Origin: a virus
Virus record (IMG/VR): IMGVR_UViG_3300009155_000129
Span: 1-35,313 of that record
Length of the DNA: 35,313 bases
Reading direction: 5' to 3' (one strand)
The notes under the pieces were generated by a model, which was not told the origin of the DNA, did no database searches, and saw only the letters and a program-made list of their open reading frames with translations. Each line of letters opens with the position of its first letter. Positions within the stretch are counted from its first letter, which is position 1. Positions 1 through 33,989 of the stretch are shown here, one piece after another. The position numbers and the translations under genes were made by a program.

Positions 1-185
1 AACATTTCATGGCTCAGTCGGTGCGCCATCACATGAGGGTTTTTGCGTGAGCATCCACCGGGACCGATTACACCGTAGCCCTGACCATTTTCTGCGCCCG
101 TCCATAGCCAGCACCCAGAGTTCGGTTCTGGGCTGACTTGTTCCCAGAACCTCACTTCAACTGGCGTGCGATTGTAGTTCGCCAT
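1..185 (-). CDS. HNH endonuclease, N-terminal part (gene continues past window start)
   Basis: This is the first 61 codons of an HNH nuclease, a predicted metal-dependent DNA endonuclease. The ATG at 185-183 overlaps the ERF stop codon in a TAATG arrangement, so it is probably translationally coupled to the gene upstream. The peptide shows the N-terminal hallmarks of a large phage/homing HNH family: an FWEQV segment, GCWLWTGA, GYGVIG and AHRLSHE. It runs out of the window in frame with two bases left over. The fragment at 35046..35313 on the same strand begins with the missing DHLCRNPSCVNPDHL HNH core, and joining the two window ends keeps the reading frame. I therefore treat both as one gene of a circular genome. 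The family assignment is strong; the exact sequence at the seam cannot be seen here. Confidence 0.8.
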   Translation of the reverse strand, partial: MANYNRTPVEVRFWEQVSPEPNSGCWLWTGAENGQGYGVIGPGGCSRKNPHVMAHRLSHEM

Positions 186-829
186 TACGCCGCCACCGAT
201 GCCTTGAGTTCAGACAGTCGGTCATTGTACTCAACGCGGAGTTCATCCAGAAAATCAGGCGGCAGCGCGTCAATGTCAGTGACGTTGGACTGATACCAAG
301 ACTTGAGCGCATTGACGCTGGCGGCGTTGCGGATGGCCTTCACCATCGTATCGTACGGCCCGCGCATTGCGGCTTTCGATGCGCCGGGTGTTCCGTTGGC
401 CGCAACCATCACAGGCGGCTCAAACTTCACATGCTGGTCGTTGTCTGGATCGTCTCCAGTTTCGAGAACGAACGTCTTGAGAAGCGCATACTTAAAGGCG
501 TAGCTAATTGCCTTTCCTGGCCCCTTGTCTTGGCTGTCGATGCCATAACCAAGGCTATCCACGATAATCTGGTCGGAGCGGTCATCAATGTTGACGAACA
601 CAACCTTGCACTGAAGCTGTGTGCGGTTGCCTTCCTGCGTCACCCTGTAGTCGGTGGGATAGCAAACAATACCGTGCTTCACCAGCAATGGGTTGATGGC
701 TTTGGCAACCTTGTCGTGGCTCACGTAGCTGTACTGCATCCCTGACTTCTTCTCCTTCTGGAGGTAGTCGAGTTCTTTCATCACAGCATTGATGCGCTGG
801 AGAATGTTAAGCGTAGATGCTGCGGTCAT
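185..829 (-). CDS. erf: ERF-family single-strand annealing protein (recombinase)
   Basis: This 214-residue protein belongs to the ERF superfamily, recombinases that bind single-stranded DNA and anneal complementary strands; P22 Erf circularises phage DNA after infection. The N-terminal half carries the family pattern: INAVMKELDYLQKEKKSG, YSYVSHDKVAKAINPLL, a beta-rich middle, then the conserved KAISYAFKYALLKTFVLETGDDPD stretch at about residues 107-130. The C-terminal third is low in conservation and likely a linker plus a protein-interaction tail. The start ATG at 829 lies inside the end of the upstream gene (23-base overlap), and the stop overlaps the HNH start, so it is part of a tightly coupled leftward operon with nuclease, SSB-like, excisionase and integrase genes. 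Confidence 0.9.
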   Translation of the reverse strand: MTAASTLNILQRINAVMKELDYLQKEKKSGMQYSYVSHDKVAKAINPLLVKHGIVCYPTDYRVTQEGNRTQLQCKVVFVNIDDRSDQIIVDSLGYGIDSQDKGPGKAISYAFKYALLKTFVLETGDDPDNDQHVKFEPPVMVAANGTPGASKAAMRGPYDTMVKAIRNAASVNALKSWYQSNVTDIDALPPDFLDELRVEYNDRLSELKASVAA

Positions 830-1757: not shown

Positions 1758-2387
1758 TTAGAGCTGTTCGTAGCGTCCAACGACCAGCGCCGTAATGGCA
1801 ATTTCGTCGTGATCTTCGTTTCCATCCAGTTCAACTGGCGTCTGGAAGCGGGGGTCAGTGCTTTCCGGCATCAGGACTAGGCGGCGCTTGTTCAGCGCAA
1901 GTCTCTTTACCGTTGTTTCGACCATTCCATTGCGGCGGCGCTCAACCACCACAATGTCACCCTCTCGAGGGTCACGGCCTAAATCAGGCCACGGCACACA
2001 GACTATGAAGCTGCCGGGAGCGAACACTTTATTCATGGAAGTACCCTGGACAAGCAGGGCGTACTGAGAAGTGTCGCTATATCTGGGATCGGGGCCGATT
2101 GGTAAGGGAGGGTGCTTTTCTTCGTCAAGCACATCCACTTCTTTCCAGACCCCTGCCTGCACTTCGCCAATTACGGATAACCCTACGTTATTTGTAGGTA
2201 GAATATTTCCGAAAAGACTCGTGAGTTCAACTCCTAGAATCGATGAAATTTTCTCAGCCCATTTTTGGGTGAGTTGTCGCTTTCCGGTTTCAAGACGCTG
2301 AATCGTGGCGCTTGTCGTGCCAAGCAGATTACCCAGTTGAGTCTGGGTAAGTCCACGCTCTAACCGTAACTCTTTGATCCGATTCAT
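1758..2387 (-). CDS. cI: CI/LexA-type phage repressor (XRE HTH + S24 peptidase)
   Basis: A 209-residue lysogenic repressor. Residues 1-57 are an XRE-type helix-turn-helix (RGLTQTQLGNLLGTTSATIQRLETGKRQLT). Residues about 70-205 form a LexA/S24 self-cleavage domain with the scissile Ala78-Gly79 (QAGVW), catalytic Ser117 in GTSMNK and Lys161 in ETTVKR. All catalytic parts are intact, so RecA-stimulated self-cleavage and SOS induction are expected. The ATG at 2387 has no Shine-Dalgarno sequence, but a -10-like TAAACT lies 7 bases upstream, suggesting a leaderless message. The gene faces the Cro-like gene across a shared operator region and ends at an intrinsic terminator. Confidence 0.93.
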   Translation of the reverse strand: MNRIKELRLERGLTQTQLGNLLGTTSATIQRLETGKRQLTQKWAEKISSILGVELTSLFGNILPTNNVGLSVIGEVQAGVWKEVDVLDEEKHPPLPIGPDPRYSDTSQYALLVQGTSMNKVFAPGSFIVCVPWPDLGRDPREGDIVVVERRRNGMVETTVKRLALNKRRLVLMPESTDPRFQTPVELDGNEDHDEIAITALVVGRYEQL

Positions 2388-2446: not shown

Positions 2447-2475
2447 TTGCTTGCTATATACCAATGTGGTACAAA
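2447..2475 (+). promoter_or_regulatory. PR promoter with repressor operator OR
   Basis: A -35 TTGCTT (2447-2452), a 17-base spacer and a -10 TACAAA (2470-2475) precede the Cro-like gene. The inverted repeat TACCA-ATG-TGGTA (2459-2471) covers the end of the spacer and the start of the -10. It matches the OL site except for the central base. Only 5 bases separate the -10 from the ATG at 2481, so this message may also be leaderless or start very close to the gene. Confidence 0.7.
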
Positions 2476-2480
2476 GCGGT

Positions 2481-2681
2481 ATGACCCTTACAGAGTTCTT
2501 CCAGCTTAAATATCTTTCCCGCCGCGAGTTCGCATCTGAAATTGGTGTGGACCCAGTGACGGTATATCGCTGGGAAAACGGCTCCCGCCTTCCAGTTCGT
2601 CACTTTGCGCGCATATCCGAAGTGACCAATGGCCGTGTGACGGCCAACGACTTCGTGCAGCCCAGTGAGGCCGCGCAATGA
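2481..2681 (+). CDS. cro: Cro-like HTH repressor
   Basis: A 66-residue DNA-binding protein with a helix-turn-helix of the Cro/CI or YdaS type: FFQLKYLSRREFASEIGVDPVTVYRWENGSRLP, residues about 5-38. It is expected to compete with the larger repressor for the TACCA-N3-TGGTA operators and shut off lysogeny during lytic growth. I chose the ATG at 2481 because an earlier TTG at 2451 lies upstream of the PR operator and -10. No Shine-Dalgarno sequence is evident, consistent with a very short leader. A strong hairpin terminator follows about 65 bases after the stop. Confidence 0.8.
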   Translation: MTLTEFFQLKYLSRREFASEIGVDPVTVYRWENGSRLPVRHFARISEVTNGRVTANDFVQPSEAAQ

Positions 2682-4034: not shown

Positions 4035-4414
4035 AGACGAGACTGACCCTCGACCACTTGCCGCCCTCCGTGAACGCGATCTGGCGGTTCTCAAAGAAGG
4101 CCGGGAAAATGTACCGCACCGAAGCCTATAACACATGGGCCAATGGTGAGGGCTGGAACGTCAAGGCGCAACTACAGCGCCAGCACAAGTTCACTGGCCC
4201 TGTGTATGTCACCCTCGCTATGCGCCGCCGCCGATCGAACATGGACGGCGACAACTTCCAGAAAGGCATCTTCGACCTTCTGCAATCCGTGGGTGCCATC
4301 GAAAACGATAAGTTCATCATGGGCTGCAACTGGTACTGGTCAGCGAACCTCCCAGACGGCGTTGCGGCTGAGATTACGATTGTTCAGGCAGACGCTCTGG
4401 AGGATGCGGCATGA
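4031..4414 (+). CDS. rusA: RusA-family Holliday junction resolvase
   Basis: A 127-residue endonuclease that cuts four-way DNA junctions, useful in phage recombination and packaging. The N-terminus has the RusA signature LPPSVNAIWR. The metal site is clear: Asp72 and Asp74 in NMDGDNFQKGIFD with Lys78, and Asp93 in ENDKF. This spacing matches the Asp70, Asp72, Lys76 and Asp91 of E. coli RusA shifted by two. Length is typical. The ATG overlaps the methyltransferase stop (ATGA) and its own stop overlaps the next start. Confidence 0.92.
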   Translation: MKTRLTLDHLPPSVNAIWRFSKKAGKMYRTEAYNTWANGEGWNVKAQLQRQHKFTGPVYVTLAMRRRRSNMDGDNFQKGIFDLLQSVGAIENDKFIMGCNWYWSANLPDGVAAEITIVQADALEDAA

Positions 4415-5016
4415 CGTTCTGGACCGAGATAGCGATTGCCCAGCACCTTGACGGGCGGTTCTACCAGCTACAGCAGAAGTCCCTTGGCACGTTTGAGGTT
4501 GTTGACCTTAACGAGCCTAACGAAATTGAAGAAGAATCCGCAGTCTACACACGCTGGAGCGCGCAAGAGCTAACCTACCTTGTCGAACTGAAGCGGCAGG
4601 GCAAGACGCACCACGAATGTGCTGTGGCCGTGGGTCGTACAGACGCGGCTGTCATGGACAAGTGGCAGAACCGGATGACGTGGGCAGAGCGTGTTGACGT
4701 TCCCCGCAAGGGTTCTCTGCGGATGGATGACATTGCCCGCGTGTGCTGCGGCGTCTGGAACATCACCCGCGAAGAGTTCAATAGCTCCCGGCGCTCCGTT
4801 CACATCGTTGCCGCCCGTCAGGTCTTCTACTGGTTGGCCCGCCGCTACACTTCGCACTCACTGCCACAGATCGGCATCTATTGCGGTCGCAAGGACCATT
4901 CAACCGTCCTGCATGGCGTGAACAAGGTTGACCAACAGATCGACCTATACCGCACCAAGATTAAAATGTGTGTGTTCGATTTAGGCGTGTCACCCCCGCA
5001 ACAGGAGGCTGCATGA
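4411..5016 (+). CDS. SANT/Myb-like + DnaA domain IV protein (putative replication regulator)
   Basis: A 201-residue two-domain protein. Residues about 48-88 (TRWSAQELTYLVELKRQGKTHHECAVAVGRTDAAV) look like a SANT/Myb helix-turn-helix. Residues about 105-185 match DnaA domain IV, the part that reads DnaA boxes: RSVHIVAARQVFYWLARRYT, LPQIGIYCG and the signature RKDHSTVLH at 160-168. DnaA's ATPase domain is absent. It may target host or phage origins, or act as a decoy or regulator; this is inference. The N-terminal segment LDGRFYQLQQKSLGTFEV resembles that of the next gene, so the two are probable paralogues. It overlaps both neighbours by ATGA. Confidence 0.82.
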   Translation: MTFWTEIAIAQHLDGRFYQLQQKSLGTFEVVDLNEPNEIEEESAVYTRWSAQELTYLVELKRQGKTHHECAVAVGRTDAAVMDKWQNRMTWAERVDVPRKGSLRMDDIARVCCGVWNITREEFNSSRRSVHIVAARQVFYWLARRYTSHSLPQIGIYCGRKDHSTVLHGVNKVDQQIDLYRTKIKMCVFDLGVSPPQQEAA

Positions 5017-5525
5017 TTACCGAACTCGAAATGAAGGAAGCCCTTGATGGGCGGTTCTTCTGGCTCGACCACAACAACGAACGCATCGGCTGCTCGCTAG
5101 TTCCGAAAGACTATATCCCTGACCATGCCCCGGCTTTTGATGAGGAAGCCAATGCCGAGAGTGGCCGCAAGGGCGGCATGACCAAGCACCGCGCATGGAC
5201 CCCGGCAGAGGATGAAATGCTGCTTGAACTGCGCGCCCAAGGGCTTCGTTGGCAGCACGTAGGCAAGCAGCTTGGTCGTGGCGACAAGGGTGCTAGGGCG
5301 CGTTACCTGGAGATATGCAAGACCTGTGAGATTGCGCCGACGAAGTGCATCAGGGCGAAGCGCAACATGCTGACGATGTTCCAGAAGAAGGAAATCATCA
5401 GGATGGTTGAGCAGGGGTTCACCTTCCCTGAGATTGACGATGCGCTAGGCCTTCCTGACTTCTGGGCGCGTGACTTCTGCACACGCTACAGGCGGGAACA
5501 AAATGCTCGGAGGATGGCAGCATGA
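5013..5525 (+). CDS. SANT/Myb-like HTH protein, paralogue of the preceding N-terminus
   Basis: A 170-residue protein starting at ATG 5013 (ATGA overlap). It begins with ALDGRFFWLDHNNERIG, similar to the start of the SANT-DnaA protein. It then has a SANT-like segment (RAWTPAEDEMLLELRAQGLRWQHVGKQLGRGDKGARARY, residues about 64-105) and a C-terminal second helix-turn-helix-like region (EIIRMVEQGFTFPEIDDALGL). It is likely DNA binding, with a role in early regulation or origin recognition by analogy with its partner. It lacks the DnaA domain. No enzymatic motif is seen. Confidence 0.7.
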   Translation: MITELEMKEALDGRFFWLDHNNERIGCSLVPKDYIPDHAPAFDEEANAESGRKGGMTKHRAWTPAEDEMLLELRAQGLRWQHVGKQLGRGDKGARARYLEICKTCEIAPTKCIRAKRNMLTMFQKKEIIRMVEQGFTFPEIDDALGLPDFWARDFCTRYRREQNARRMAA

Positions 5526-5691: not shown

Positions 5692-6435
5692 ATGAACGTC
5701 GAGAACCTTAAACGACTTATGTCTCTGGGCCTGACCACTGAGCAGATGGCAGGCGTCATTGATGTGCTAGCTGTGGAGTTAGCACCTCTGGAGGCAATGA
5801 GAGCGGATGCAGAGTTGCGCCGTTCCAAGGATCGTCTGAGGAAATTCCGTGGAAATTCCGTGGAAATTCCGGTGGAAACTTCCATGGAATCCCCCACACC
5901 CCCTATAGATATAACTACTACTCAAGTTTTAGAAAAATTACCCCCAACCCCCAAGAACTCCCGGCTCCACGGAACGAACCCGCGTTCGCTCGGCACCAAT
6001 CCCCGTGGCTCAGGCGTTGAACCAGACGGCTTCAGTGCCTTTTGGGATGCCTATCCCAAGCGGGATGGCAACGCTGACCGCAAGGGCGCTGTGAAGGCAT
6101 TTGGGCCAGCCGTGACAAGGGCAGGGGGGCATGAACAGGTTGTCCGTGCTGCGGCTCGTTACGCGGTCCACTGCCGGGAAAAGGGCAAGATCGGCACCGA
6201 GTTCGTGAAGCAGGCGCGGTCATGGCTCAACAGCGACCTGTGGCGTGAATGGATGCCCCAGGAACTGCCGCCCGAAGTCACCAGCACCCGCGTTTATGTC
6301 CTCACAGGTACGGACCAGATGGACGCATGGGACGCCTTCTTCAAGCGCACCAAGGGCAAGTTGGCCCCGCGTGACCAGCGTGGCGGCTGGTGGTTTGACA
6401 CGGAATACCCCCCAGCAATGGAGCAAGCAGCATGA
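5692..6435 (+). CDS. Putative phage replication initiation protein
   Basis: A 247-residue protein. The N-terminal about 45 residues are helical (LKRLMSLGLTTEQMAGVIDVLAVELAPLEAMR). Residues about 50-110 are a low-complexity linker rich in Pro, Thr and Ser. The C-terminal half has a module common in phage replication proteins: FSAFWDAYPKRDGNADRKGAVKAF, an Ala-rich helix, then ARSWLNSDLWREWM. This layout is like lambda O, with DNA binding at one end and helicase loading at the other, but the assignment rests on the C-terminal module only. The linker-coding DNA holds an iteron cluster and an A+T-rich tract that look like the origin. The start is uncertain because GAAGG lies 13 bases upstream. Confidence 0.65.
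   Translation: MNVENLKRLMSLGLTTEQMAGVIDVLAVELAPLEAMRADAELRRSKDRLRKFRGNSVEIPVETSMESPTPPIDITTTQVLEKLPPTPKNSRLHGTNPRSLGTNPRGSGVEPDGFSAFWDAYPKRDGNADRKGAVKAFGPAVTRAGGHEQVVRAAARYAVHCREKGKIGTEFVKQARSWLNSDLWREWMPQELPPEVTSTRVYVLTGTDQMDAWDAFFKRTKGKLAPRDQRGGWWFDTEYPPAMEQAA
5840..5940. other. Candidate replication origin: iterons plus A+T-rich tract inside the replication gene
   Basis: Five near-identical units follow head to tail: GGAAATTCCGT at 5840 and 5851, GGAAATTCCGGT at 5862, GGAAACTTCCAT at 5874 and GGAATCC at 5886, with 11 to 12 base spacing. Each is an imperfect palindrome. They are followed by a C-rich spacer and an A+T-rich tract at about 5903-5940, unlike the surrounding G+C-rich DNA. Iterons followed by A+T-rich DNA inside the initiator gene is the layout of ori-lambda. 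Origin function is inferred. Confidence 0.6.
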
Positions 6436-6608
6436 GCGAGACTCGGCCCGTATATGAACGCTGCCCGATGTATGGGGTTGAATGCGAGTACATCACGATA
6501 GCCCGCGCGGCGGCAGAGATTGCCACCCGCTACGATGACGCGCTCAAGCGCATGAACGACATGCAGGCTGAACTGGAATATCTGCGGCAGGAGGTCAACC
6601 GGGGATGA
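6432..6608 (+). CDS. Small hypothetical protein with C-terminal coiled coil, 58 residues
   Basis: The ATG at 6432 overlaps the replication gene stop (ATGA) and the TGA overlaps the start of the NusG-like gene. The N-terminal part contains two Cys residues (ERCPMYGVEC), which could be a partial metal site. The rest is a charged heptad-like helix (AAAEIATRYDDALKRMNDMQAELEYLRQEV), which suggests dimerisation. The coupling at both ends makes it a confident gene; the function is unknown. Confidence 0.7.
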   Translation: MSETRPVYERCPMYGVECEYITIARAAAEIATRYDDALKRMNDMQAELEYLRQEVNRG

Positions 6609-7060
6609 CTTGGGTAATTCTCAGAACCGACTTCCGCAAGGAACCCTATGTCGTTTCCCAAATTGGGAACATGGGCTTCCAGTGCTGGCATCCGGTCCAG
6701 GTTATTGCCGCCCGCCCAGCAATAGCCCGCCGAGTCACAGCCAAGGCCCAGCTACGGGCTTACCGTGAGATAGCGATATTACCCCGCCGCGTATTTGCAA
6801 GCGTGCCAGTGGCCGTCGTAGACGATCTACATGGAATCCGGCATTTGGTGGGCGTCGAGTTTGACGGCGACATGCGGCCTGTAGTTATCCCTGACGGCCA
6901 GATCGCGGCATTCCGTGCGGTGATTGATGCAGAGAACAGGGCGGCGCTGGCGCTATCACAATCTGCTAGCAAGCGTCAGAAAGCCAAATGGCGCGACCTC
7001 AAGGAAGCCCTGTCGGAAATGGTTGACCAAGCAAAGGCGCAACTTGAACAGGCCGCTTAA
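6605..7060 (+). CDS. NusG N-terminal-domain-like protein, candidate antiterminator
   Basis: A 151-residue protein whose first about 110 residues fit the NusG/RfaH N-terminal fold. It opens with WVILRTDFRKEPYVVSQIGNMGF, then CWHPVQV, a basic variable loop (ARRVTAKAQLRAYREIAILPRRVF), VASVPV, a VVGVEF-like strand and VIPDGQIAAFRAVI. The NusG domain binds the clamp helices of RNA polymerase. There is no KOW domain; the C-terminus is a charged helix. It is the last early gene, followed by a structured non-coding leader and the late genes, the position of Q in lambda, so I infer a role in late-gene antitermination. The similarity is by pattern only. Confidence 0.7.
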   Translation: MTWVILRTDFRKEPYVVSQIGNMGFQCWHPVQVIAARPAIARRVTAKAQLRAYREIAILPRRVFASVPVAVVDDLHGIRHLVGVEFDGDMRPVVIPDGQIAAFRAVIDAENRAALALSQSASKRQKAKWRDLKEALSEMVDQAKAQLEQAA

Positions 7061-7353
7061 TTGGCCATAAAAAAGTTACAATTACCCGTCATAAGCAATG
7101 ATGACGAATTGCATATGCCGCTCAAGTGGGTTCGCCCCGTGGCTGTAACCGCTGCACCCGTTGCGGCGTGTTGAGAAGAATTGCCTGAAATTCCCCTGCG
7201 TTGAGATCAACCTATCCCGGACTGCATCCCATCTCGGGTTGAACGCGCAGGGGATACCCATTCCAGCCCACCGCACTGCCACCCCTCCCGGTATAGCGTT
7301 AGAGCAGATCGCGCCGTGCGGCTGGAACCCTTCATCACAACCAGGAGCCTCCG
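7061..7353 (+). promoter_or_regulatory. Non-coding leader between early and late operons
   Basis: These 293 bases hold no convincing gene. They contain a TACAAT (-10-like) at 7077-7082 without a good -35, a structured segment at 7193-7253 and, at the end, AGGAG serving the small basic gene at 7354. I expect the late promoter and the target of the early regulator here, but no consensus promoter can be named. Confidence 0.45.
7193..7253 (+). ncRNA. Predicted structured RNA in the late leader
   Basis: CCCCTGCG (7193-7200) pairs perfectly with CGCAGGGG (7246-7253). Inside, two alternative stems compete: TCAACC (7207-7212) with GGTTGA (7237-7242), or GAGAT (7203-7207) with ATCTC (7231-7235). No T-run follows, so it is not a simple terminator. 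It may be a recognition site for an antitermination complex. The pairing is seen directly; the function is inferred. Confidence 0.45.
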
Positions 7354-7473
7354 ATGGCAAAGTCCTCCAAGTCCTCGTCCTCGTCGCACAAGGGCAACAG
7401 CCCCGGCAAGTCGCCGTCTGGCAAGCTGCACGCTACGCCGCACGCCAAGATCGTCACGGGCTGCTGCAAGTAA
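7354..7473 (+). CDS. Ser/Lys-rich basic microprotein, 39 residues
   Basis: A 39-codon frame with a good Shine-Dalgarno AGGAG about 10 bases before ATG 7354. It starts MAKSSKSSSSSS and continues with Lys, His, Gly and Pro, ending in a GCCK tail with two adjacent Cys residues. It is very basic and probably disordered. As the first gene of the late operon, just before the terminase genes, it could be a small DNA-binding or head protein, but there is no family match I recognise. Confidence 0.55.
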   Translation: MAKSSKSSSSSHKGNSPGKSPSGKLHATPHAKIVTGCCK

Positions 7474-7495: not shown

Positions 7496-7843
7496 ATGAG
7501 CGACCAAGCTGATGAAGCAGTCGCCTCCGGTGTTGTTAACAACAGTGAGAAGCAGCAAGGGTTCGCTCCCGGCGTTTCTGGCAATCCGGCAGGCAGGCCC
7601 AAGGGGGCGGTTAACAAAACCACAGCCCTTCTCAAGGACGCAATCTTGCTTGCGGCTCAAAAGGCAGGCGGCGATGGCGAAGAGGGGCTGGTGAACTATC
7701 TGACCACGCAGGCGCAGACGAACCCCGGCCCGTTCATGTCGCTTCTGGGCAAGGTGCTTCCGATGACTGTGGCGGGTGACCCGAATGCCCCGCTGATTGG
7801 CGAGATAACGGTTACAATCGTTGACCCGCTCGTTAAATCGTAA
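7496..7843 (+). CDS. Putative terminase small subunit (DUF5681-type N-terminus)
   Basis: A 115-residue protein directly upstream of, and overlapping, the large terminase, the usual place of the small DNA-recognition subunit. Residues about 20-42 (QQGFAPGVSGNPAGRPKGAVNKTT) match the GNPxGRPKG AT-hook-like pattern of the DUF5681 family, often found in small terminase proteins of this phage type. A helical segment follows (LLKDAILLAAQKAG...LVNYLTTQAQ). The ATG at 7496 has AAGAGG upstream. The role as small terminase is inferred from position and motif. Confidence 0.72.
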   Translation: MSDQADEAVASGVVNNSEKQQGFAPGVSGNPAGRPKGAVNKTTALLKDAILLAAQKAGGDGEEGLVNYLTTQAQTNPGPFMSLLGKVLPMTVAGDPNAPLIGEITVTIVDPLVKS

Positions 7844-9104
7844 GGTAGCCCGCAAGCTGGCACCGCTCATGCAGCCCACAAGATACGCGGCTGCGTTTGG
7901 CGGAAGAGGAAGCGGGAAGTCGCATTTCTTTGCAGAACAAATCATTCAGGACGCGGTGTCCATTTCCGGCCTTCGTGCTGTGTGCATCCGCGAAGTCCAG
8001 AAGTCTCTGAAGGAGAGCGCCAAGCGACTGCTTGAAGACAAGTTGGGCGAGTTCGGACTGGGCAAGGCTGACGGCTTCAACGTGCTTCAGGACCGCATCG
8101 AAACCCCTGGCAATGGCGTCATCATCTTTCAGGGCATGCAGGACCACACGGCAGAAAGCATCAAATCGCTGGAAGGCTATCAGAGGGCTTGGATTGAGGA
8201 AGCGCAGACACTTTCGGCTCGGAGCCTCGGCCTTCTACGTCCTACCATTCGCGCGGAAGGTTCGCGCATTTTTTTCAGTTGGAACCCTACGCGGAAGTCG
8301 GACCCTGTAGACCAGATGTTTCGCGGCGCTGAATTGCCCACAAACTGCGCCGTTGCCAATGTGAACTGGTCAGATAACCCGTGGTTTCCCGGCGTACTTG
8401 AGCAAGAGCGGCTCGATTGTTTACGAACCCAGCCTGACCAATATCCCCATATTTGGGAAGGCGACTACGCAACGGTGCTGACCGGAGCCTATTACGCCAA
8501 GCATCTTCAGGAAGCCCGCGAACAAGGCCGCATTGGCAAGGTACAGCCTGACCCGCTGATGCAAGTCCGGGCATTCTGGGACATTGGCTTCAATGATAGC
8601 ACGGCCATCTGGATCGCTCAGTTCGTTGGACGCGAAGTCCGTATCCTTGACTACTACGAAGCGCAAGGGCAGCCCCTCGCGAGCCACTTGGTTTGGCTTA
8701 GAGATCGGTGGAGTAACAGTTTATCTATACTCCCCCACGACGGTGCCCAGCATAGCAACATTACTGGAATCCGCTTCGCAGATCATATCCGCCAAGCTGG
8801 CTTCAAAGCTGAAACAGTAGATAACCAGGGCAAGGGCGCTGCGATGAAGCGCATTGAGGCGGCCCGCAGGCTGTTTCCTTCCATGTGGTTCAACGAAAAG
8901 ACAACCAGGCCGGGGTTAGACGCAATTGGCTGGTATCACGAAAAGCGCGACGAGGCCCGCAACCTGGGCCTTGGCCCTGACCACGATTGGTCTTCGCACG
9001 CCGCTGATGCTTTTGGCCTCATGGCCGTAGCCTACGAAGCCCCGAGAGAAAAGACGAAGCCGAGAGAGCGTATGGTTGTAGGGGCTGGATCATGGCTGGG
9101 GTGA
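7821..9104 (+). CDS. terL: Terminase large subunit (PBSX/Terminase_3 type)
   Basis: The 427-residue DNA-packaging motor, with ATPase and nuclease domains. Walker A is GGRGSGKS at residues 27-34, the Walker B-type segment is RAWIEEA at 122-128, and SWNP follows as in Terminase_3 proteins. The nuclease domain starts around residue 250 (FWDIGFNDSTAIW, first acidic residue) and has a late acidic cluster (DHDWSSHAADAFG, about 385-397). The first possible start is a TTG at 7821, overlapping the small subunit by 23 bases; an ATG at 7869 would remove the conserved VARKLAPL segment just before Walker A, so I prefer the TTG. It is complete and without damage. Confidence 0.93.
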   Translation: MTRSLNRKVARKLAPLMQPTRYAAAFGGRGSGKSHFFAEQIIQDAVSISGLRAVCIREVQKSLKESAKRLLEDKLGEFGLGKADGFNVLQDRIETPGNGVIIFQGMQDHTAESIKSLEGYQRAWIEEAQTLSARSLGLLRPTIRAEGSRIFFSWNPTRKSDPVDQMFRGAELPTNCAVANVNWSDNPWFPGVLEQERLDCLRTQPDQYPHIWEGDYATVLTGAYYAKHLQEAREQGRIGKVQPDPLMQVRAFWDIGFNDSTAIWIAQFVGREVRILDYYEAQGQPLASHLVWLRDRWSNSLSILPHDGAQHSNITGIRFADHIRQAGFKAETVDNQGKGAAMKRIEAARRLFPSMWFNEKTTRPGLDAIGWYHEKRDEARNLGLGPDHDWSSHAADAFGLMAVAYEAPREKTKPRERMVVGAGSWLG

Positions 9105-9478: not shown

Positions 9479-11497
9479 ATGGCCACGGAAAAAGACAATC
9501 TCGCTGAAGAGCGCGAAGAGTTCGAAGAGGCTTATGACGCGGAATCCGAAAACCGCAACGTAGCCTTGGAAGACCTGAAGTTCGCCCGCCTCGGTGAGCA
9601 GTGGCCGGAACAAATCCGCAAGCAGCGGGAACTTGATGGCCGTCCGATCCTGACTATCAACAAGCTGCCTGCGTTCATTCGCCAGGTCGTGAATGACAGC
9701 CGTCAGAACCGCCCGCAGATCAAGGTGAAGCCCGTCGATGACAAGGCTGACATTGACACGGCCCGGATTTACGAGGGTCTTATCCGCAATATCGAGCGCA
9801 CTTCCAAAGCAGATGTGGCGTATGATACGGCGGTGGATTATGCCGTGTCCTGTGGCTTCGGCTATATCCGCGTTGCCATTGACTATGAGTACGATGACAC
9901 TTTCGACAAATGTCTCAAGATTGAACGTATCGCTAACCCCTTCAGCGTTGTCGGTGATCCGTATTCAACCGCTATGGATGGTTCGGACTGGAACCGTGCT
10001 TGGGTGATGGACCTGAAGTCCGAAGAGGAATTTCAGGCCAAGTACAAGGGCGCGCAGAAGGTTGATTGGGAAGACCTCGGATATTCCAATCTCAAGGCCC
10101 CTTGGCGTGATGCTGACGATATTCTGGTCTGCGAAAGCTGGCACCGTGAGCAGACGGAACGCGAAATTCTGAAGCTGACCAGCGGTGATGTTGTCGGCGC
10201 AAAGGAATACGAGGCGGGCCGCGATATTTTCGAGATGGCGGGCATTCAGGTTGTGACCTCGCGCATGGCTAAAGCGTACAAGATTACGCAGCGCATCATG
10301 ACGGGCGCTGAAATTCTGGAAGAAAACGAGTGGCAGGGCCAGTATCTGCCGATTATCCCGGTCTATGGCGAAGAACTGAACGTCGAGGGCAAGCGTTACT
10401 TCCGCAGCCTCATCAATCAGGCCAAAGATGCCCAGCGCATGTTCAATTACTGGCGCACGACTGCGACGGAACTGGTGGCCTTGGCCCCGCGTGTGCCGTT
10501 CATTGGTGAGGAAGGCGCATTCGACGCCGATCCAAACTGGGCAAACGCTAACACGCAGTCGCTGCCGTTTCTTCAGTACGCCAAAGGCTCACAGATGCCG
10601 TCTCGCCAGCCTCTTGATGGCGGTGGTGCGGCTGGGTCCATGCAGGAAGCGTTGGCCGCCAGCGACGATATTAAGTCGATTACGGGCATGTATGACGCCT
10701 CGCTGGGCCAGCGGTCTAACGAAACCTCGGGCAGGGCTATCATGGCCCGCCAGCGCGAGGGTGACGTCAATACGTTCCACTTCATTGACAACCTGTCCCG
10801 CTCCATCCGTCAGGTTGGCTGCGTCCTGGTTGACCTGATCCCGAAGGTTTACAACGGCGAGCGCATCATTCGCATCATCGGCCACGATGACGTTGAAGAA
10901 GTGGCGAAGATTGGCGAGAAGCCGGACCCGGAAGAGATGCAGCAGCAGGCTGGTTTCCCCGAAGGCGTCGAGCATATCTATGACCTGTCGGTTGGTCGCT
11001 ATGATGTGGCTGTTGACACGGGTCCGTCCTACACGACGAAGCGCGAGGAAAGCGCCCAGCAGATGACGGAATTTGTCCGTGCCTATCCGCAGGCTGCGCC
11101 GCTCATTGGCGACTTGCTTGTGAAGGCTCTGGATTGGCCGCAGGCGGAAGAGATTAGCGAACGCCTCAAGGCCATGCTCCCGCAGCAGATCAGTTCCGGT
11201 ATTCCGCCTGAACTTCAGCAGCAAATCCAGCAGGGCCAGCAGCAGTTGCAGCAGCAGGGCCAGCAGCTCCAGCAGTTGAGCCAAGAAAACCAACAGTTGA
11301 AGCAATCCCAGGGCATGGACATGCAGAAGGCACAGGCTGACGCTCAAAAGGCGCAGGCTGACATGCAGATTGCAATACAGCGCATGGAAATTGACCGCCA
11401 GAAAATGCAAATTGAAGCATACCGAGCCGAGACTGAGCGCATGCAGGCCGAACAGGCTTTGATGGCACCGCTTCCGCCTGTGATGCCCCCGATCTAA
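9479..11497 (+). CDS. Portal protein (P22-like family)
   Basis: A 672-residue portal, the twelve-part ring at the unique capsid vertex through which DNA passes. It matches the P22 portal family in size and in conserved stretches: LGEQWPEQIRKQRELDGRPILTINKLPAFIRQVVND near residue 38, a long central region with DAQRMFNYWRTTATELVALAPRVPFIGEEG, and SLGQRSNETSGRAIMARQREGDVNTFHFIDNL. The C-terminal about 100 residues are Gln-rich coiled coil (QQQIQQGQQQLQQQ...), like the barrel of P22-type portals. GGAGG lies shortly before the ATG. The gene is intact. Confidence 0.95.
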   Translation: MATEKDNLAEEREEFEEAYDAESENRNVALEDLKFARLGEQWPEQIRKQRELDGRPILTINKLPAFIRQVVNDSRQNRPQIKVKPVDDKADIDTARIYEGLIRNIERTSKADVAYDTAVDYAVSCGFGYIRVAIDYEYDDTFDKCLKIERIANPFSVVGDPYSTAMDGSDWNRAWVMDLKSEEEFQAKYKGAQKVDWEDLGYSNLKAPWRDADDILVCESWHREQTEREILKLTSGDVVGAKEYEAGRDIFEMAGIQVVTSRMAKAYKITQRIMTGAEILEENEWQGQYLPIIPVYGEELNVEGKRYFRSLINQAKDAQRMFNYWRTTATELVALAPRVPFIGEEGAFDADPNWANANTQSLPFLQYAKGSQMPSRQPLDGGGAAGSMQEALAASDDIKSITGMYDASLGQRSNETSGRAIMARQREGDVNTFHFIDNLSRSIRQVGCVLVDLIPKVYNGERIIRIIGHDDVEEVAKIGEKPDPEEMQQQAGFPEGVEHIYDLSVGRYDVAVDTGPSYTTKREESAQQMTEFVRAYPQAAPLIGDLLVKALDWPQAEEISERLKAMLPQQISSGIPPELQQQIQQGQQQLQQQGQQLQQLSQENQQLKQSQGMDMQKAQADAQKAQADMQIAIQRMEIDRQKMQIEAYRAETERMQAEQALMAPLPPVMPPI

Positions 11498-16004: not shown

Positions 16005-17177
16005 ATGGCCAATACGATCCTCACCCCCACCGCAGTGACCCGCGAGGCGCTGCGTATCCTCCACCAGAAGCTGAACTTCGTGGGCAACATTGTCCGTGAG
16101 TATGACTCTAGCTTCGCTAACTCTGGCGCGAAGATTGGCGACTCTCTCAAGATTCGCCTTCCGAACCAGTACACGGTGACAACTGGTGCGACCCTGACCA
16201 CTCAGGACACCACCGAGTCAAGCACCACGCTTCAGGTTGCCACTCAGAAGCACGTTGGCATGACCTTCTCGTCTGCCGAACTCACGCTGTCTCTGGATGA
16301 CTTCTCCAAGCGTATCATTGAACCCGCAATGAGCGTTCTTGCTGCCAACGTCGAATCTGATGCCTTGTCAATGTACAAGGATATTTATCAGTCGGTGTGG
16401 AACGGCGCATCGGCTGCTACCTACAACAAGGCGCTTGACGCTCGCGTTCTGCTCCAGCGTGCGTTGACTCCGGTCAACGACCGTACCGCCCTGATGGACC
16501 CGATTGCGATGGCTGACCTTGTCAAGGACACCAAGTCGCTCTTCCAGGATTCTGCTCAGATTTCGAAGCAGTTCAAGGAAGGTTACATGGGCCGCGCGGC
16601 TGGCTTCGATTGGTCTGAAAACACCATGCTTCCGGCGCACACGCGCTCGGGCGCTAACAGTGCGTATCTGACCAACGGTGCCACTCAGTCCGGTGCGACC
16701 CTTGTGGTTGACACTGGTGCGACTGCTCCGTCTGCTGGTGACGTTATCACCATTGCAGGCGTGTTCTCGGTTCACCCGGAAACGAAGGTTTCCACGGGTG
16801 TGCTTCAGCAGTTCGTGATTGGCACGGGTGCGACGACCACTTCGTTCCCGATCTCGCCTGCCATCGTTGCCACGGGTGCCACGCAGAACGTCAGCAACAC
16901 CGCTGCCGATAATTCTGCCGTGTCCTTCCTCGGCACCGCCTCGACTGCCGTGCAGACCTCGCTGCTGTTCCAGAAGGAAGCCTTCGCGTTCGCGACTGCC
17001 GACCTTCTCATGCCGAAGGGCATTGACTTCGCAGCCCGCGAAGTGATGGACGGCATCTCGCTCCGTGTGGTTCGCCAGTATGCTATTTCGACCGACACGT
17101 TCCCGTGTCGAGTAGACATTTTGTACGGATATAAGACGATTAGGCCACAATTGGCCGTTCGTTACCACAACAACTAA
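16005..17177 (+). CDS. Major capsid protein (P22 coat-like)
   Basis: A 390-residue coat protein of the P22 gene 5 family (HK97 fold). It starts MANTILTPTAVTREALRILHQKLNFVGNIVREYDSSF and continues with KIGDSLKIRLPNQYTV, HVGMTFSSAELTLSLDDFSKRIIEPAM and a Ser/Thr/Gly-rich inserted region at about 215-300, all typical of this family. AAGGA lies about 8 bases before the ATG. Codon use is strongly biased to C/G-ending codons, as expected for a highly expressed gene. A strong hairpin follows the stop. Confidence 0.95.
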   Translation: MANTILTPTAVTREALRILHQKLNFVGNIVREYDSSFANSGAKIGDSLKIRLPNQYTVTTGATLTTQDTTESSTTLQVATQKHVGMTFSSAELTLSLDDFSKRIIEPAMSVLAANVESDALSMYKDIYQSVWNGASAATYNKALDARVLLQRALTPVNDRTALMDPIAMADLVKDTKSLFQDSAQISKQFKEGYMGRAAGFDWSENTMLPAHTRSGANSAYLTNGATQSGATLVVDTGATAPSAGDVITIAGVFSVHPETKVSTGVLQQFVIGTGATTTSFPISPAIVATGATQNVSNTAADNSAVSFLGTASTAVQTSLLFQKEAFAFATADLLMPKGIDFAAREVMDGISLRVVRQYAISTDTFPCRVDILYGYKTIRPQLAVRYHNN

Positions 17178-29211: not shown

Positions 29212-29426
29212 AGCCGATCCATAACTGGCGGGCTGTATTGCGGTACGGCTGGTCAGTTCGGCTCATCATCATTGCAGGTTTCCTGACGGGCCTAGAAGCC
29301 ATCCTGCCGCTGGTCCCTGACATTCTCCCGATCCCGATTGAATGGCTTGCAGTGTCTCAGTTCCTCATTGTGATGAGTGCGCTGTTCGCGCGGTTCATCG
29401 CCCAAAGCAAGGTATCCGATCCATGA
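29208..29426 (+). CDS. Holin candidate of the lysis cassette
   Basis: A 72-residue protein with a GTG start at 29208 overlapping the previous stop (GTGA). It has two hydrophobic helices (WSVRLIIIAGFLTGLEAILPLVP and WLAVSQFLIVMSALFARFI) and a basic N-terminus. Its position directly before the endolysin and the spanins makes it the best holin candidate in the window. Its stop overlaps the endolysin start. Confidence 0.75.
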   Translation: MKPIHNWRAVLRYGWSVRLIIIAGFLTGLEAILPLVPDILPIPIEWLAVSQFLIVMSALFARFIAQSKVSDP

Positions 29427-29887
29427 GCAGGATGAAAAAGGGAACAACCGCTGCCGCTCTCGCCATCGTCGTTATCGGTGGCTTTGAGGGGCTGCGCCTC
29501 AATGCCTATCCAGACCCGGCAACGGGCGGCAAGCCTTGGACGGTCTGCTATGGCCGCGCCTATGGCATCAGTCCCGGCGACAAGCATTCTCTTGAGGAAT
29601 GCAAGTCCATGCTGCTTCAAGACCTAACCAAATACTCGCAGGGCATCCTTGGTTGCACCAGTGTTCCGCTGCCTGACGAGCGGTTCGTGGCGCTGACCAG
29701 CTTCGCCTATAACGTGGGCGTGCAGGCGGCTTGCAAGTCTTCGGTGGTTCGCCTCATCAACCAGGGCAAGACCCGTCAGGGCTGCGATGCGCTGATGAGG
29801 TGGAACAAGGCGGCTGGCATCACTTTCCCCGGCCTGACCAAGCGGCGTGCAAAAGAACGGGAACTCTGCCTGAAGGGGATACCCTGA
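29423..29887 (+). CDS. Endolysin, GH24 lysozyme with SAR-type N-terminus
   Basis: A 154-residue lysozyme that cleaves the peptidoglycan glycan chain. The catalytic triad of the T4/P21 type is seen as Glu22 (FEGLRLNAY), Asp31 (PDPATGG) and Thr40 (PWTVCYG). The N-terminal helix (GTTAAALAIVVIGG) is weakly hydrophobic, as in signal-anchor-release endolysins, and Cys42 near the active site suggests disulfide control. The start at 29423 overlaps the holin stop by ATGA. The gene is intact. Confidence 0.9.
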   Translation: MSRMKKGTTAAALAIVVIGGFEGLRLNAYPDPATGGKPWTVCYGRAYGISPGDKHSLEECKSMLLQDLTKYSQGILGCTSVPLPDERFVALTSFAYNVGVQAACKSSVVRLINQGKTRQGCDALMRWNKAAGITFPGLTKRRAKERELCLKGIP

Positions 29888-32301: not shown

Positions 32302-32838
32302 TCATTTCGCCCACTCTAGATAAGTCGCGCCAAGGTGGCCGCGTGACCAAACCACCCAGCAGAAGTCTATTGATCCGCCACCCCGGATTGATTCGCCCTG
32401 TTCGCGGAGCATTTCACCGGGCGGCATGGACGGCCTGCGGCTGAACATAATAACCCGTTCTGTGGCGTTGTCTGAAAACAGGCCATGACGGCGCTGTGAT
32501 GCCAAGAACTTCACTTGGACAAGGGCCGCAACCCTGTATTTGGCAATGGTCAGCGCGTGGTCAATTATGGCCTGCGCCGTGCCATACGGCGGGTTAGTCA
32601 CGATATTATCGTAAGCGGCGAAGTCCCTCATAAAGTCGCGCTGTGGGTAGCCATAGCCCCTGTCGATCAGGTCGGCACCCGTCCCGCCCATAACGCGCGG
32701 AATCGTTCCCATGCCGCAGCACGGGTCATGGATCGCCCCGACAAACGGAACCCGGTGCCGCAGTGCTTCCACGCACCATTCCGGCTCGACATACCAATCA
32801 TTTTCATCACGGATATATTCAGACTTCCGCTCGCCCAT
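32302..32838 (-). CDS. DNA methyltransferase (NPPY, adenine/N4-cytosine class)
   Basis: A 178-residue S-adenosylmethionine-dependent methyltransferase. Motif I is DPCCGMGTIPRVM (residues 38-50) and the catalytic motif IV is TNPPYG (81-86). It lacks a recognisable target-recognition domain and is shorter than restriction-modification enzymes, like many phage orphan methyltransferases. The ATG overlaps the integrase stop (TAATG), and it is the last gene of the leftward operon before attP. No restriction partner is near, so a role in anti-restriction or gene control is likely but inferred. Confidence 0.82.
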   Translation of the reverse strand: MGERKSEYIRDENDWYVEPEWCVEALRHRVPFVGAIHDPCCGMGTIPRVMGGTGADLIDRGYGYPQRDFMRDFAAYDNIVTNPPYGTAQAIIDHALTIAKYRVAALVQVKFLASQRRHGLFSDNATERVIMFSRRPSMPPGEMLREQGESIRGGGSIDFCWVVWSRGHLGATYLEWAK

Positions 32839-33989
32839 TATCCCTGCCTTCTGTGATGGCCGTAAACGCGCTCCACGGTTGAGGCATCAGCCCCCAGCAC
32901 TTCCGCAGTTTCCCATACCGTCAGGGGCTTCTGAGCGGGTCTAGCGCCCTTGCCCTCACGGCCCCACAGGAGCCAGCTAGCGCAGGTATGGCGCAGGGTA
33001 TGCGGGGTCACTTCTTCACCAAGACTAGCTGCGGCCCTGACCGTGTTCCAGGCTCGACGCATTTTTCCGATGGGGCTTCCGTTGTGATGGATGACGGGAA
33101 TTCCTCCCAGTTCAGCAGCATGCCATCTAGAAATATGACCCTGAAGCCCTTTGGGAACTTGCACAGGCGGGCTTCGCTTTGTGGTTTCCCTCTCGTCAGA
33201 CCCTCTGCGAAAGATAATGCGTCTCTGAAGGTCGATATGGCCGTGAGACTTAGAAGCTGCCCATCGAAGCCGAATAATTCTATCGTGCCGTGTTCCAGTG
33301 TACACTCCTATGAGAATGAAGCGGGCTACGTGGCTGTAGTCCGTAAACTGTACAGCGCCTTTCGCAGCCCTATGGCCTTCCCGCGATAGACGGCGGCATG
33401 CCCACAACATTTGGGCGACCTCACTTCTTTCCAGAAACCTTTCGCGCCTGCTTCCGGGTTTTGGCAGGCTTACCTTTGGCACGGCTTCCAGCGGGCTTTC
33501 GCGGTGCCAGTGGTTTATTGCGGCCTGGAAGGTCTTCAGTTCCTGTCTCGCTGTGGATGGCTTCACGGAACCACCACGGGATACGGTCGTTTTCATAGAT
33601 GGCAACAATGGCTTTTGCGGCGCGGTACGCTGCTTCAGATATTCGCGGCATGTAGACCCTTTCACATCAGCTAGTGATTTATCGCCCCAATATGCACTCA
33701 GCGCCTTCACATGATACCTGATCGTCCCCCGGCTGGGGCTGTCTGCGGGCAAGTCGGTCAGGTAAAGCATCATCACTTCCGCACAACCAACTCGGGATAG
33801 GCTACGCTCAGAGGTGTCGGGCCTAAAGTGGTCTGTAAGGTACTGGCGCAGCGCGTTCGTGGCACCATCAACATCCGTTGCAGCGCATCCTGTGCTAACT
33901 TCCTCTTCTCCGTCCCTGATAACGTAGACGGGCGCACGGCCTTTCTGGCGCTTGACGTAGAGCCTCGCGCCTTTGCTCGGCCTCGGCAT
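32838..33989 (-). CDS. int: Tyrosine-type site-specific integrase
   Basis: A 383-residue integrase. The N-terminal part contains an arm- or core-binding SAM-like domain (residues about 65-160, VMMLYLTDLP...TIRYHVKALSAYWG). The catalytic domain has Arg234 (TGTRHDRI), Lys271 (ERETTKRS), His330 and Arg333 (PHTLRHTCASWL) and the nucleophile Tyr376 (VERVYGHH). The usual LGH His is replaced (VLGADAST), as often in this alphaproteobacterial subgroup. A 16-residue insertion with GREGKGARPAQK follows HTLRHTCASWLLW. GGAGGG precedes the ATG. It should recombine attP at the tRNA-Pro fragment 600 bases away. Confidence 0.93.
   Translation of the reverse strand: MPRPSKGARLYVKRQKGRAPVYVIRDGEEEVSTGCAATDVDGATNALRQYLTDHFRPDTSERSLSRVGCAEVMMLYLTDLPADSPSRGTIRYHVKALSAYWGDKSLADVKGSTCREYLKQRTAPQKPLLPSMKTTVSRGGSVKPSTARQELKTFQAAINHWHRESPLEAVPKVSLPKPGSRRERFLERSEVAQMLWACRRLSREGHRAAKGAVQFTDYSHVARFILIGVYTGTRHDRIIRLRWAASKSHGHIDLQRRIIFRRGSDERETTKRSPPVQVPKGLQGHISRWHAAELGGIPVIHHNGSPIGKMRRAWNTVRAAASLGEEVTPHTLRHTCASWLLWGREGKGARPAQKPLTVWETAEVLGADASTVERVYGHHRRQG

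Follow-up and report, generated by a model that had tools for sequence, protein, structure and literature searches.

We analysed a viral record of 35,313 bases over its whole length, referred to below as the window. A rightward early operon opens opposite a CI-like repressor gene and contains, among other genes, a methyltransferase, RusA, a DnaA-C-terminal-like protein and a replication initiator. This lambda-like run ends with the gene of main interest, which encodes a protein with a NusG/RfaH-like N-terminal (NGN) domain, and the packaging, head, tail and lysis block lies directly 3' of it. The CI/Cro pair, the replication run, Terminase_3, the P22-type portal and coat and the lysozyme make the phage look like a P22-like podovirus whose control region is of the lambda kind. 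The phage is temperate.

Table 1. Genes and sequence features of the window
Feature	Position	Strand	Remark
ERF recombinase	185-829	-	
CI-like repressor (HTH_3 + Peptidase_S24)	1758-2387	-	profile match
Cro-like HTH protein, opens the rightward early operon	2451-2681	+	faces the CI-like gene
HTH protein with DnaA C-terminal domain	4411-5016		weak D5-like match, phrog_323
HTH protein, Myb-like	4968-5525		weak D5-like match, phrog_323
Replication initiation protein	5692-6435	+	phrog_270, E 1.8e-15
58-aa protein	6432-6608	+	4-nt overlap with the NGN gene
KOW-less NGN-fold protein of 151 aa, proposed late antiterminator	6605-7060	+	
NGN domain, residues 1-96	6605-6892	+	AF2 model, PDB matches
C-terminal helical hairpin in place of KOW, residues 97-151	6893-7057	+	AF2 model
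Leader element, A-rich conserved block	7064-7084	+	18/21 columns invariant
Leader element, conserved core, proposed recruitment site	7101-7185	+	68/86 columns invariant
Possible stem-loop 1, GGG-UUCG-CCC tip	7110-7147	+	one compensatory pair
Possible stem-loop 2, invariant 6-bp stem CGCUGC/GCGGCG, variable loop	7150-7168	+	
C-rich, G-poor untranslated stretch, possible Rho utilisation site	7211-7288	+	45% C, 21% G
First clear late gene, DUF5681 / phrog_11043, probable small terminase	7496-7843	+	inferred from position
Terminase large subunit (Terminase_3)	7821-9104	+	profile match
P22-like portal	9479-11497	+	profile match
P22-like coat protein	16005-17177	+	profile match
Phage lysozyme, end part of the plus-strand late block	29342-29887	+	profile match
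Integrase-like gene	32838-33989	-	26.6 bits, just below the Pfam cut-off of 27.1

The initial annotation had described the NGN gene as the last early gene before the whole late operon. This order was confirmed: CI/Cro and the replication genes are followed by the NGN gene and then by TerL, portal, coat and lysozyme, all on the plus strand. The NGN gene closes the rightward early run, where lambda has Q. Neither PF06530 nor PF03589 detected a Q-type gene over the cut-off, each being found in 0 of 46 records with the window included.

The NGN open reading frame is a real gene. It runs from the ATG at 6605 to the stop at 7060 and shares a 4-nt overlap with the preceding gene, and its protein is kept at 86-100% identity in 10 IMG/VR loci. 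The synonymous and non-synonymous codon differences (34/16, 33/17, 41/17, 34/18, 36/22 and 38/16) stand at about 2:1. A distant homologue, L218:2374-2841, was detected via the DNA element described below; with a presumed GTG start it is 57% identical to the window protein (E 4e-60). By direct homology no match was found in annotated phages, plasmids or genome contigs, which leaves metagenomic viruses as the only source of the window protein in the data examined. A further candidate relative, L018, was dropped as a chance match of 30 residues.

Several smaller genes were noted along the way. The two HTH proteins matched phrog_323 (D5-like transcriptional regulator) with E values of 4e-4 and 7e-4 and are candidate activators. 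The 58-aa protein has a coiled-coil-like C-terminus (LKRMNDMQAELEYLRQEVNRG) and is a possible partner of the NGN protein; its C-terminal segment reappears 5' of the NGN gene in relatives, in some of them at full length and in others as 24-39 residues. Between the element and the terminase genes lies a Ser/Lys-rich ORF of 39 aa (7354-7473) with a good ribosome site, which among the loci compared was present only in the window and in the identical contig L001.

The NGN domain and the C-terminal hairpin

Taken alone, the window protein stayed below threshold in every direct scan of the profile libraries. The NCBIfam profile UpxY (NF033644) resembled it weakly over the NGN part, with E=1.6e-4 and 21.7 bits, far under the cut-off of 100, and no other NCBIfam profile matched at E<=1. 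UpxY matched 7/7 family members and Pfam NusG 2/7, the latter with a best E of 0.026. An hhalign comparison of the close family with eight phage NusGs gave 40% probability over 30 columns and was unconvincing.

Three lines of evidence show that the window protein has the NGN fold. The homologue L218 exceeded the Pfam NusG cut-off (27.9 bits against 22.2, E 3.3e-6), with its residues 3-108 aligned to profile positions 2-92/93, and it also matched phrog_6386 'transcription antiterminator' (5.3e-6). A search profile was built from 13 phage NusG paralogues, leaving the window family out. Among 25,329 ORFs it ranked all members of the window family right behind the true NusGs (E 7.8e-6 to 1.8e-3, the window protein at 8.8e-6), and nothing besides these two groups appeared at E<=10. 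The third line is an AlphaFold2 model computed with an alignment of 33 sequences (pLDDT 85.5, pTM 0.79); a single-sequence prediction gave a poor fold (pLDDT 42) and was set aside. The NGN part of the model has strands at residues 2-8, 26-28, 31-36, 52-57, 62-66 and 78-96 and helices at 13-22 and 69-74. When the model was compared with the PDB, RfaH and NusG were the top matches and RfaH the best (E 4.3e-6). Since NusG paralogues were part of its alignment, the model is not fully independent of the sequence evidence; the 13-member profile and the L218 homologue decided the assignment. The NusG/RfaH-like N-terminal domain that the initial annotation had read from the letters, proposing structure prediction against NusG and RfaH as the check, was thus borne out, and so was its second point, the missing KOW domain. 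PF00467 had no match at E<=10 across the whole record and was positive in 14/14 control genomes, and the C-terminus is helical in the model.

In place of KOW the model contains two long helices joined by a basic conserved turn, SKRQKAKWR. Compared with L218, this hairpin is identical at 40/55 residues and the NGN part at 46/95. The hairpin is therefore better conserved than the NGN part, which is not what the decay of a degenerate paralogue predicts. The top structural match was autoinhibited RfaH (8pfg; Z 11.5, rmsd 3.8, 121 residues aligned, model residues 1-148), in an alignment that takes in part of the RfaH helical hairpin; few rows of the model's alignment cover the window hairpin. The recruited RfaH chain of 101 residues scored Z 10.1 with an rmsd of 2.3 over 95 residues. 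Because the two Z values are close, the model is suggestive, and no more, of a closed, RfaH-like state. By analogy with closed RfaH, the hairpin may mask the RNA polymerase (RNAP) site, and the protein would then be inert until opened. The C-terminal part may also switch its fold to a beta-barrel, as profiles can miss divergent switching domains. In the sequences of the phage paralogues L040, L029 and L126 the NGN and KOW parts are joined by a helix-rich segment. The window family could plausibly have arisen from a form of this kind by losing KOW.

Leader elements of the window family and of other phages

Between the NGN gene and the late genes we found a conserved element made of two blocks, the first A-rich and the second called the core, with about 15 nt of variable spacer between them. 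The invariant columns (Table 1) were counted over 10 rows, the truncated L019 being left out; the next flank had merely 3 of 48 columns invariant. Each block occurs once in the window. The element lay 3' of the NGN gene in every NGN-bearing contig that extends sufficiently beyond the gene (12/12), at 4-1173 bp past the NGN stop, and it stays at the early/late border despite genes inserted after the NGN gene in relatives. In L003 and L012-L014 the two lie about 1.17 kb apart and the intervening sequence appears to consist of genes, which suggests that extra early genes were added ahead of the late border. As a check independent of the protein, an 18-mer of the element alone was scanned over 2.9 million viral contigs. 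It hit 30 stretches, and the true element was present in 11 contigs; in 10 of these the NGN gene lies upstream, and the remaining contig, L230, stops at the element. These computations show that the NGN gene and the leader element are co-inherited. On the basis of this association we propose that the element is a dedicated recruitment site for the NGN protein.

The element contains inverted repeats, and consensus folding over the window family gave two stems. The GGG-UUCG-CCC sequence is invariant in 11 rows, and the compensatory change in stem-loop 1, C-G to G-C, occurs in 3/11 rows. The single-sequence RNA energies of the plus-strand element were unremarkable (z -0.3 to -1.2 against shuffles) and left stem-loop 1 unsupported, and the predicted folds differ among relatives. 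An RNA structure in the element is possible.

NusG paralogues stand ahead of terminase genes in other phages as well. We searched 47 records, the window and 46 others found via the gene or the terminase, with Pfam NusG; six exceeded the cut-off, none of them from the window family. Of the 123 terminase-related loci that include 1500 bp or more of upstream sequence, 12 had an NGN gene (L055 and L056 encode the same protein), always upstream of the terminase on the same strand and 0.7-4.7 kb away. Both elements, that of the window and the sister element described below, were absent from all 111 NGN-less loci of this set. Annotated NusG genes closely precede the packaging genes in Sinorhizobium phage phi3LM21 and Microcystis phage yong2, and hypothetical proteins that are NGN genes do so in Labrenzia phage vB_LagS-V1 and Bradyrhizobium phage ppBjS10J-1. 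In yong2 and LagS-V1 this neighbourhood spans the record ends, and the packaging genes of ppBjS10J-1 are unannotated. Many other phages have KOW-bearing NusG paralogues upstream of terminase.

The NGN type of L131, a Bradyrhizobium prophage, was found in 16 IMG/VR loci, in 14 of which a same-strand terminase large subunit lies 3' of it (seven by tblastn, seven by Pfam); L200 and L204 gave no terminase match. Downstream of this gene we found a sister element, a 65-nt motif AAATCAG-N-CGGCCGGU-loop-UUUCACCCGCCGGGNGGCUUGUGUC. It was present in 17 of 18 loci (the 16 plus L131 and L106), with L193 lacking it and L200 carrying only a portion, and a search of 2.88 Mb at E<=0.1 gave no further copy. 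One position of its stem occurs as G-C, C-G and A-U pairs, and 98% of the cells are paired; with 15 of the 17 loci aligned, the pairing beat all but 2 of 500 shuffles and also slid versions. In L131 (element at 8532-8596) and relatives the sister element closes with GGNGGCTTGTG, some 10 nt past its hairpin. This end resembles the consensus pause (G-11 G-10 ... T-3 G-2 Y-1 G+1). In L195 and L197 the GGNGGCTTGTG region carries a terminator-like T-run.

The sister element is common to phages with different terminases, namely the Bradyrhizobium-phage type, Terminase_6 and Terminase_3 types. Terminases resembling that of the window, in L131 (60% identity), L192 (64%), L201 (52%) and L205 (41%), all occur with the sister element and not with the window's. 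The element therefore tracks the type of NusG and not the terminase, which is the strongest argument for a pair of protein and site and against a packaging signal.

Consensus searches of the window's leader detected no sigma70-type promoter, and a strict scan detected no intrinsic terminator on its plus strand. A looser terminator scan was positive in 18/36 leaders and in 176/517 control segments, and likewise in 18/36 on the minus strand. Terminators are thus mildly commoner in leaders but equally frequent on the minus strand, which makes the terminator evidence weak. Strong single terminators were seen in L193, L195, L197, L202, L203, L204 and L106 of the sister group, and also in L104 (phi3LM21) and in L017 of the window family (9015-9038). 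That of L193 (5824-5848) lies in a leader in which the hairpin element is absent and the CAAATCAG motif is kept. The C-rich stretch of the window's leader is at the 99.8th percentile of the window for C-rich, G-poor composition, and Rho could act there.

Late transcription: proposed mechanism and alternatives

Specialised NusG paralogues, Q antiterminators and phage NusG paralogues, the latter as 'transcription antiterminator' in databases, are already known. NGN domains are reported to bind the beta' clamp helices and to suppress pausing; RfaH is reported to load at a non-template DNA hairpin (ops) and LoaP via a UNCG-type leader RNA hairpin, and both take RNAP past terminators (PMC7593976, PMC6370827, PMC12691694). 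UpxY is described as working on Bacteroides capsule operons (PMC7593976). For LoaP, a leader hairpin with a terminator is described, and the NusG paralogue alone is sufficient (PMC12691694). The isolated RfaH NTD binds elongation complexes at any site (PMC6370827).

RfaH of E. coli (5ond, 2oug, 8pfg) resembles the window protein in the NGN fold, as best structural match, in the helical hairpin of its closed form and in being operon-specific. The RfaH hairpin, however, is a KOW domain that refolds to a beta-barrel, whereas no KOW was detected in the window protein; RfaH is also chromosomal and uses the ops sites of several operons, while the NGN gene of the window belongs to a phage that has a single copy of the element. 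LoaP of Bacillus velezensis is a specialised NusG paralogue whose UNCG-type leader hairpin heads a long operon (PMC12691694). Its CTD contacts RNA and its leader has an intrinsic terminator. The GGG-UUCG-CCC of the window element recalls the LoaP target, at ordinary folding energies; no KOW was found in the window and no terminator in its leader. The phage paralogues (phrog_6386 and phrog_25909 'transcription antiterminator', and the NusG-like proteins of phi3LM21 and yong2) share the place ahead of terminase and differ in the KOW-like end seen in those examined, which the window family lacks; in the papers searched, no function or target site was found for them. Lambda-type Q (PF06530, PF03589) shares with it the proposed job and the position, at the end of the early genes and ahead of the late operon, but has no sequence match to the window protein. 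The Q fold differs from the NGN fold.

We propose that a phage NusG paralogue, loaded at the leader element, makes RNAP resistant to terminators or to Rho over the late operon, and we give this reading a probability of roughly 0.6. The NGN and helical-hairpin protein would be the last early product, and early RNAP, or RNAP from a putative late promoter, would transcribe the element. There the protein could be loaded like RfaH at ops, on non-template DNA, or like LoaP, on an RNA hairpin. Its NGN domain would then bind the beta' clamp helices, and the protein would travel with RNAP as an anti-pausing and antitermination factor. With the host NusG site occupied and no KOW present for Rho, NusG-stimulated Rho termination would be blocked in the C-rich untranslated leader and over the late block of about 23 kb. 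The job of Q would in this way be performed by an RfaH/LoaP-type factor. RNAP binding, recognition of the element, antitermination and Rho as the opponent are all inferred. Q itself is reported to need both a specific DNA element and a sigma-dependent pause for loading (PMC7171158). Of the Q-like late antiterminator suggested in the initial annotation, the Q-like place stood. It is backed by the lack of PF06530 and PF03589 genes, the conserved leader element and the same gene order in unrelated phages, and the antiterminator activity is kept as a plausible proposal. The initial annotation had mentioned neither the leader element nor the helical C-terminal hairpin. It took the mechanism to be undescribed for this phage group: a full-text search, which left out bioRxiv and many subscription journals, turned up no description of late control by a phage NusG paralogue, of a KOW-less one or of the two elements, but paralogues at this position are already annotated in named phages.

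Other explanations of the locus were weighed against this reading. An ordinary activator, for example one of the two HTH proteins, could act at a promoter within the element, with the NGN protein as an accessory elongation factor. The weak phrog_323 matches speak for it, the A-rich block, spacer and second block could form an activator-dependent promoter, and the Caulobacter GTA cluster is reported to use an activator together with an antiterminator (PMC11150451). An activator leaves unexplained, however, why the element is co-inherited with the NGN gene and why NusG paralogues recur at this place, and we consider it unlikely as the sole explanation; a mixed model of activator and NGN antiterminator is possible. 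It is somewhat more doubtful still that the element is a packaging (cos/pac) or other terminase-linked signal, beside which the NGN gene is a mere neighbour that may act elsewhere, for example by competing with NusG in general or by serving host take-over. Its place directly ahead of the terminase genes, its conservation as DNA and its inverted repeats would suit such a signal; yet the sister element spans different terminases and follows the NGN type, related terminases without NGN have the element in 0/111 loci, and the window-type element remains with its NGN gene despite inserted genes.

The protein might also be a degenerate paralogue that only competes with host NusG, as a general anti-Rho or anti-silencing factor with no specific site. 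The absence of KOW fits this, and so does the finding that an NGN domain by itself can take the place of NusG on the polymerase (PMC6370827). Against it stand the conservation of the hairpin above that of the NGN part and the existence of a dedicated, conserved element, and we regard it as very improbable.

More tentatively, and with less than even odds in our judgement, the proposed antitermination at the leader element can be extended to a two-part switch, a NusG-like protein with its own element, that took over from Q in many alphaproteobacterial phages whose terminases differ; every NGN type would recognise an element of its own. On the window's branch a permanent helical hairpin would have taken the place of KOW, keeping the protein closed, as in RfaH, until the element opens it and leading to antitermination free of KOW.

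To our knowledge, late-gene control is not known for most phages beyond the lambda and T4/T7 models. The data suggest a means of switching on phage late genes that has so far not been characterised; a NusG paralogue in the place of Q with a matching cis element would, if true, offer a mechanism that can be tested and annotated in a broad range of phages. It would also serve as a natural tool against Rho and as a new case for testing how a specialised NusG paralogue locates a single operon, and a KOW-less NGN factor would reveal which activities of the NusG family need the RNAP-binding half alone. A fold search of BFVD with the model returned further viral NGN proteins. One of the phage proteins with a matching fold, A0A6J5RV22, is 146 aa long and, judged by this length, could be another NGN protein without KOW.
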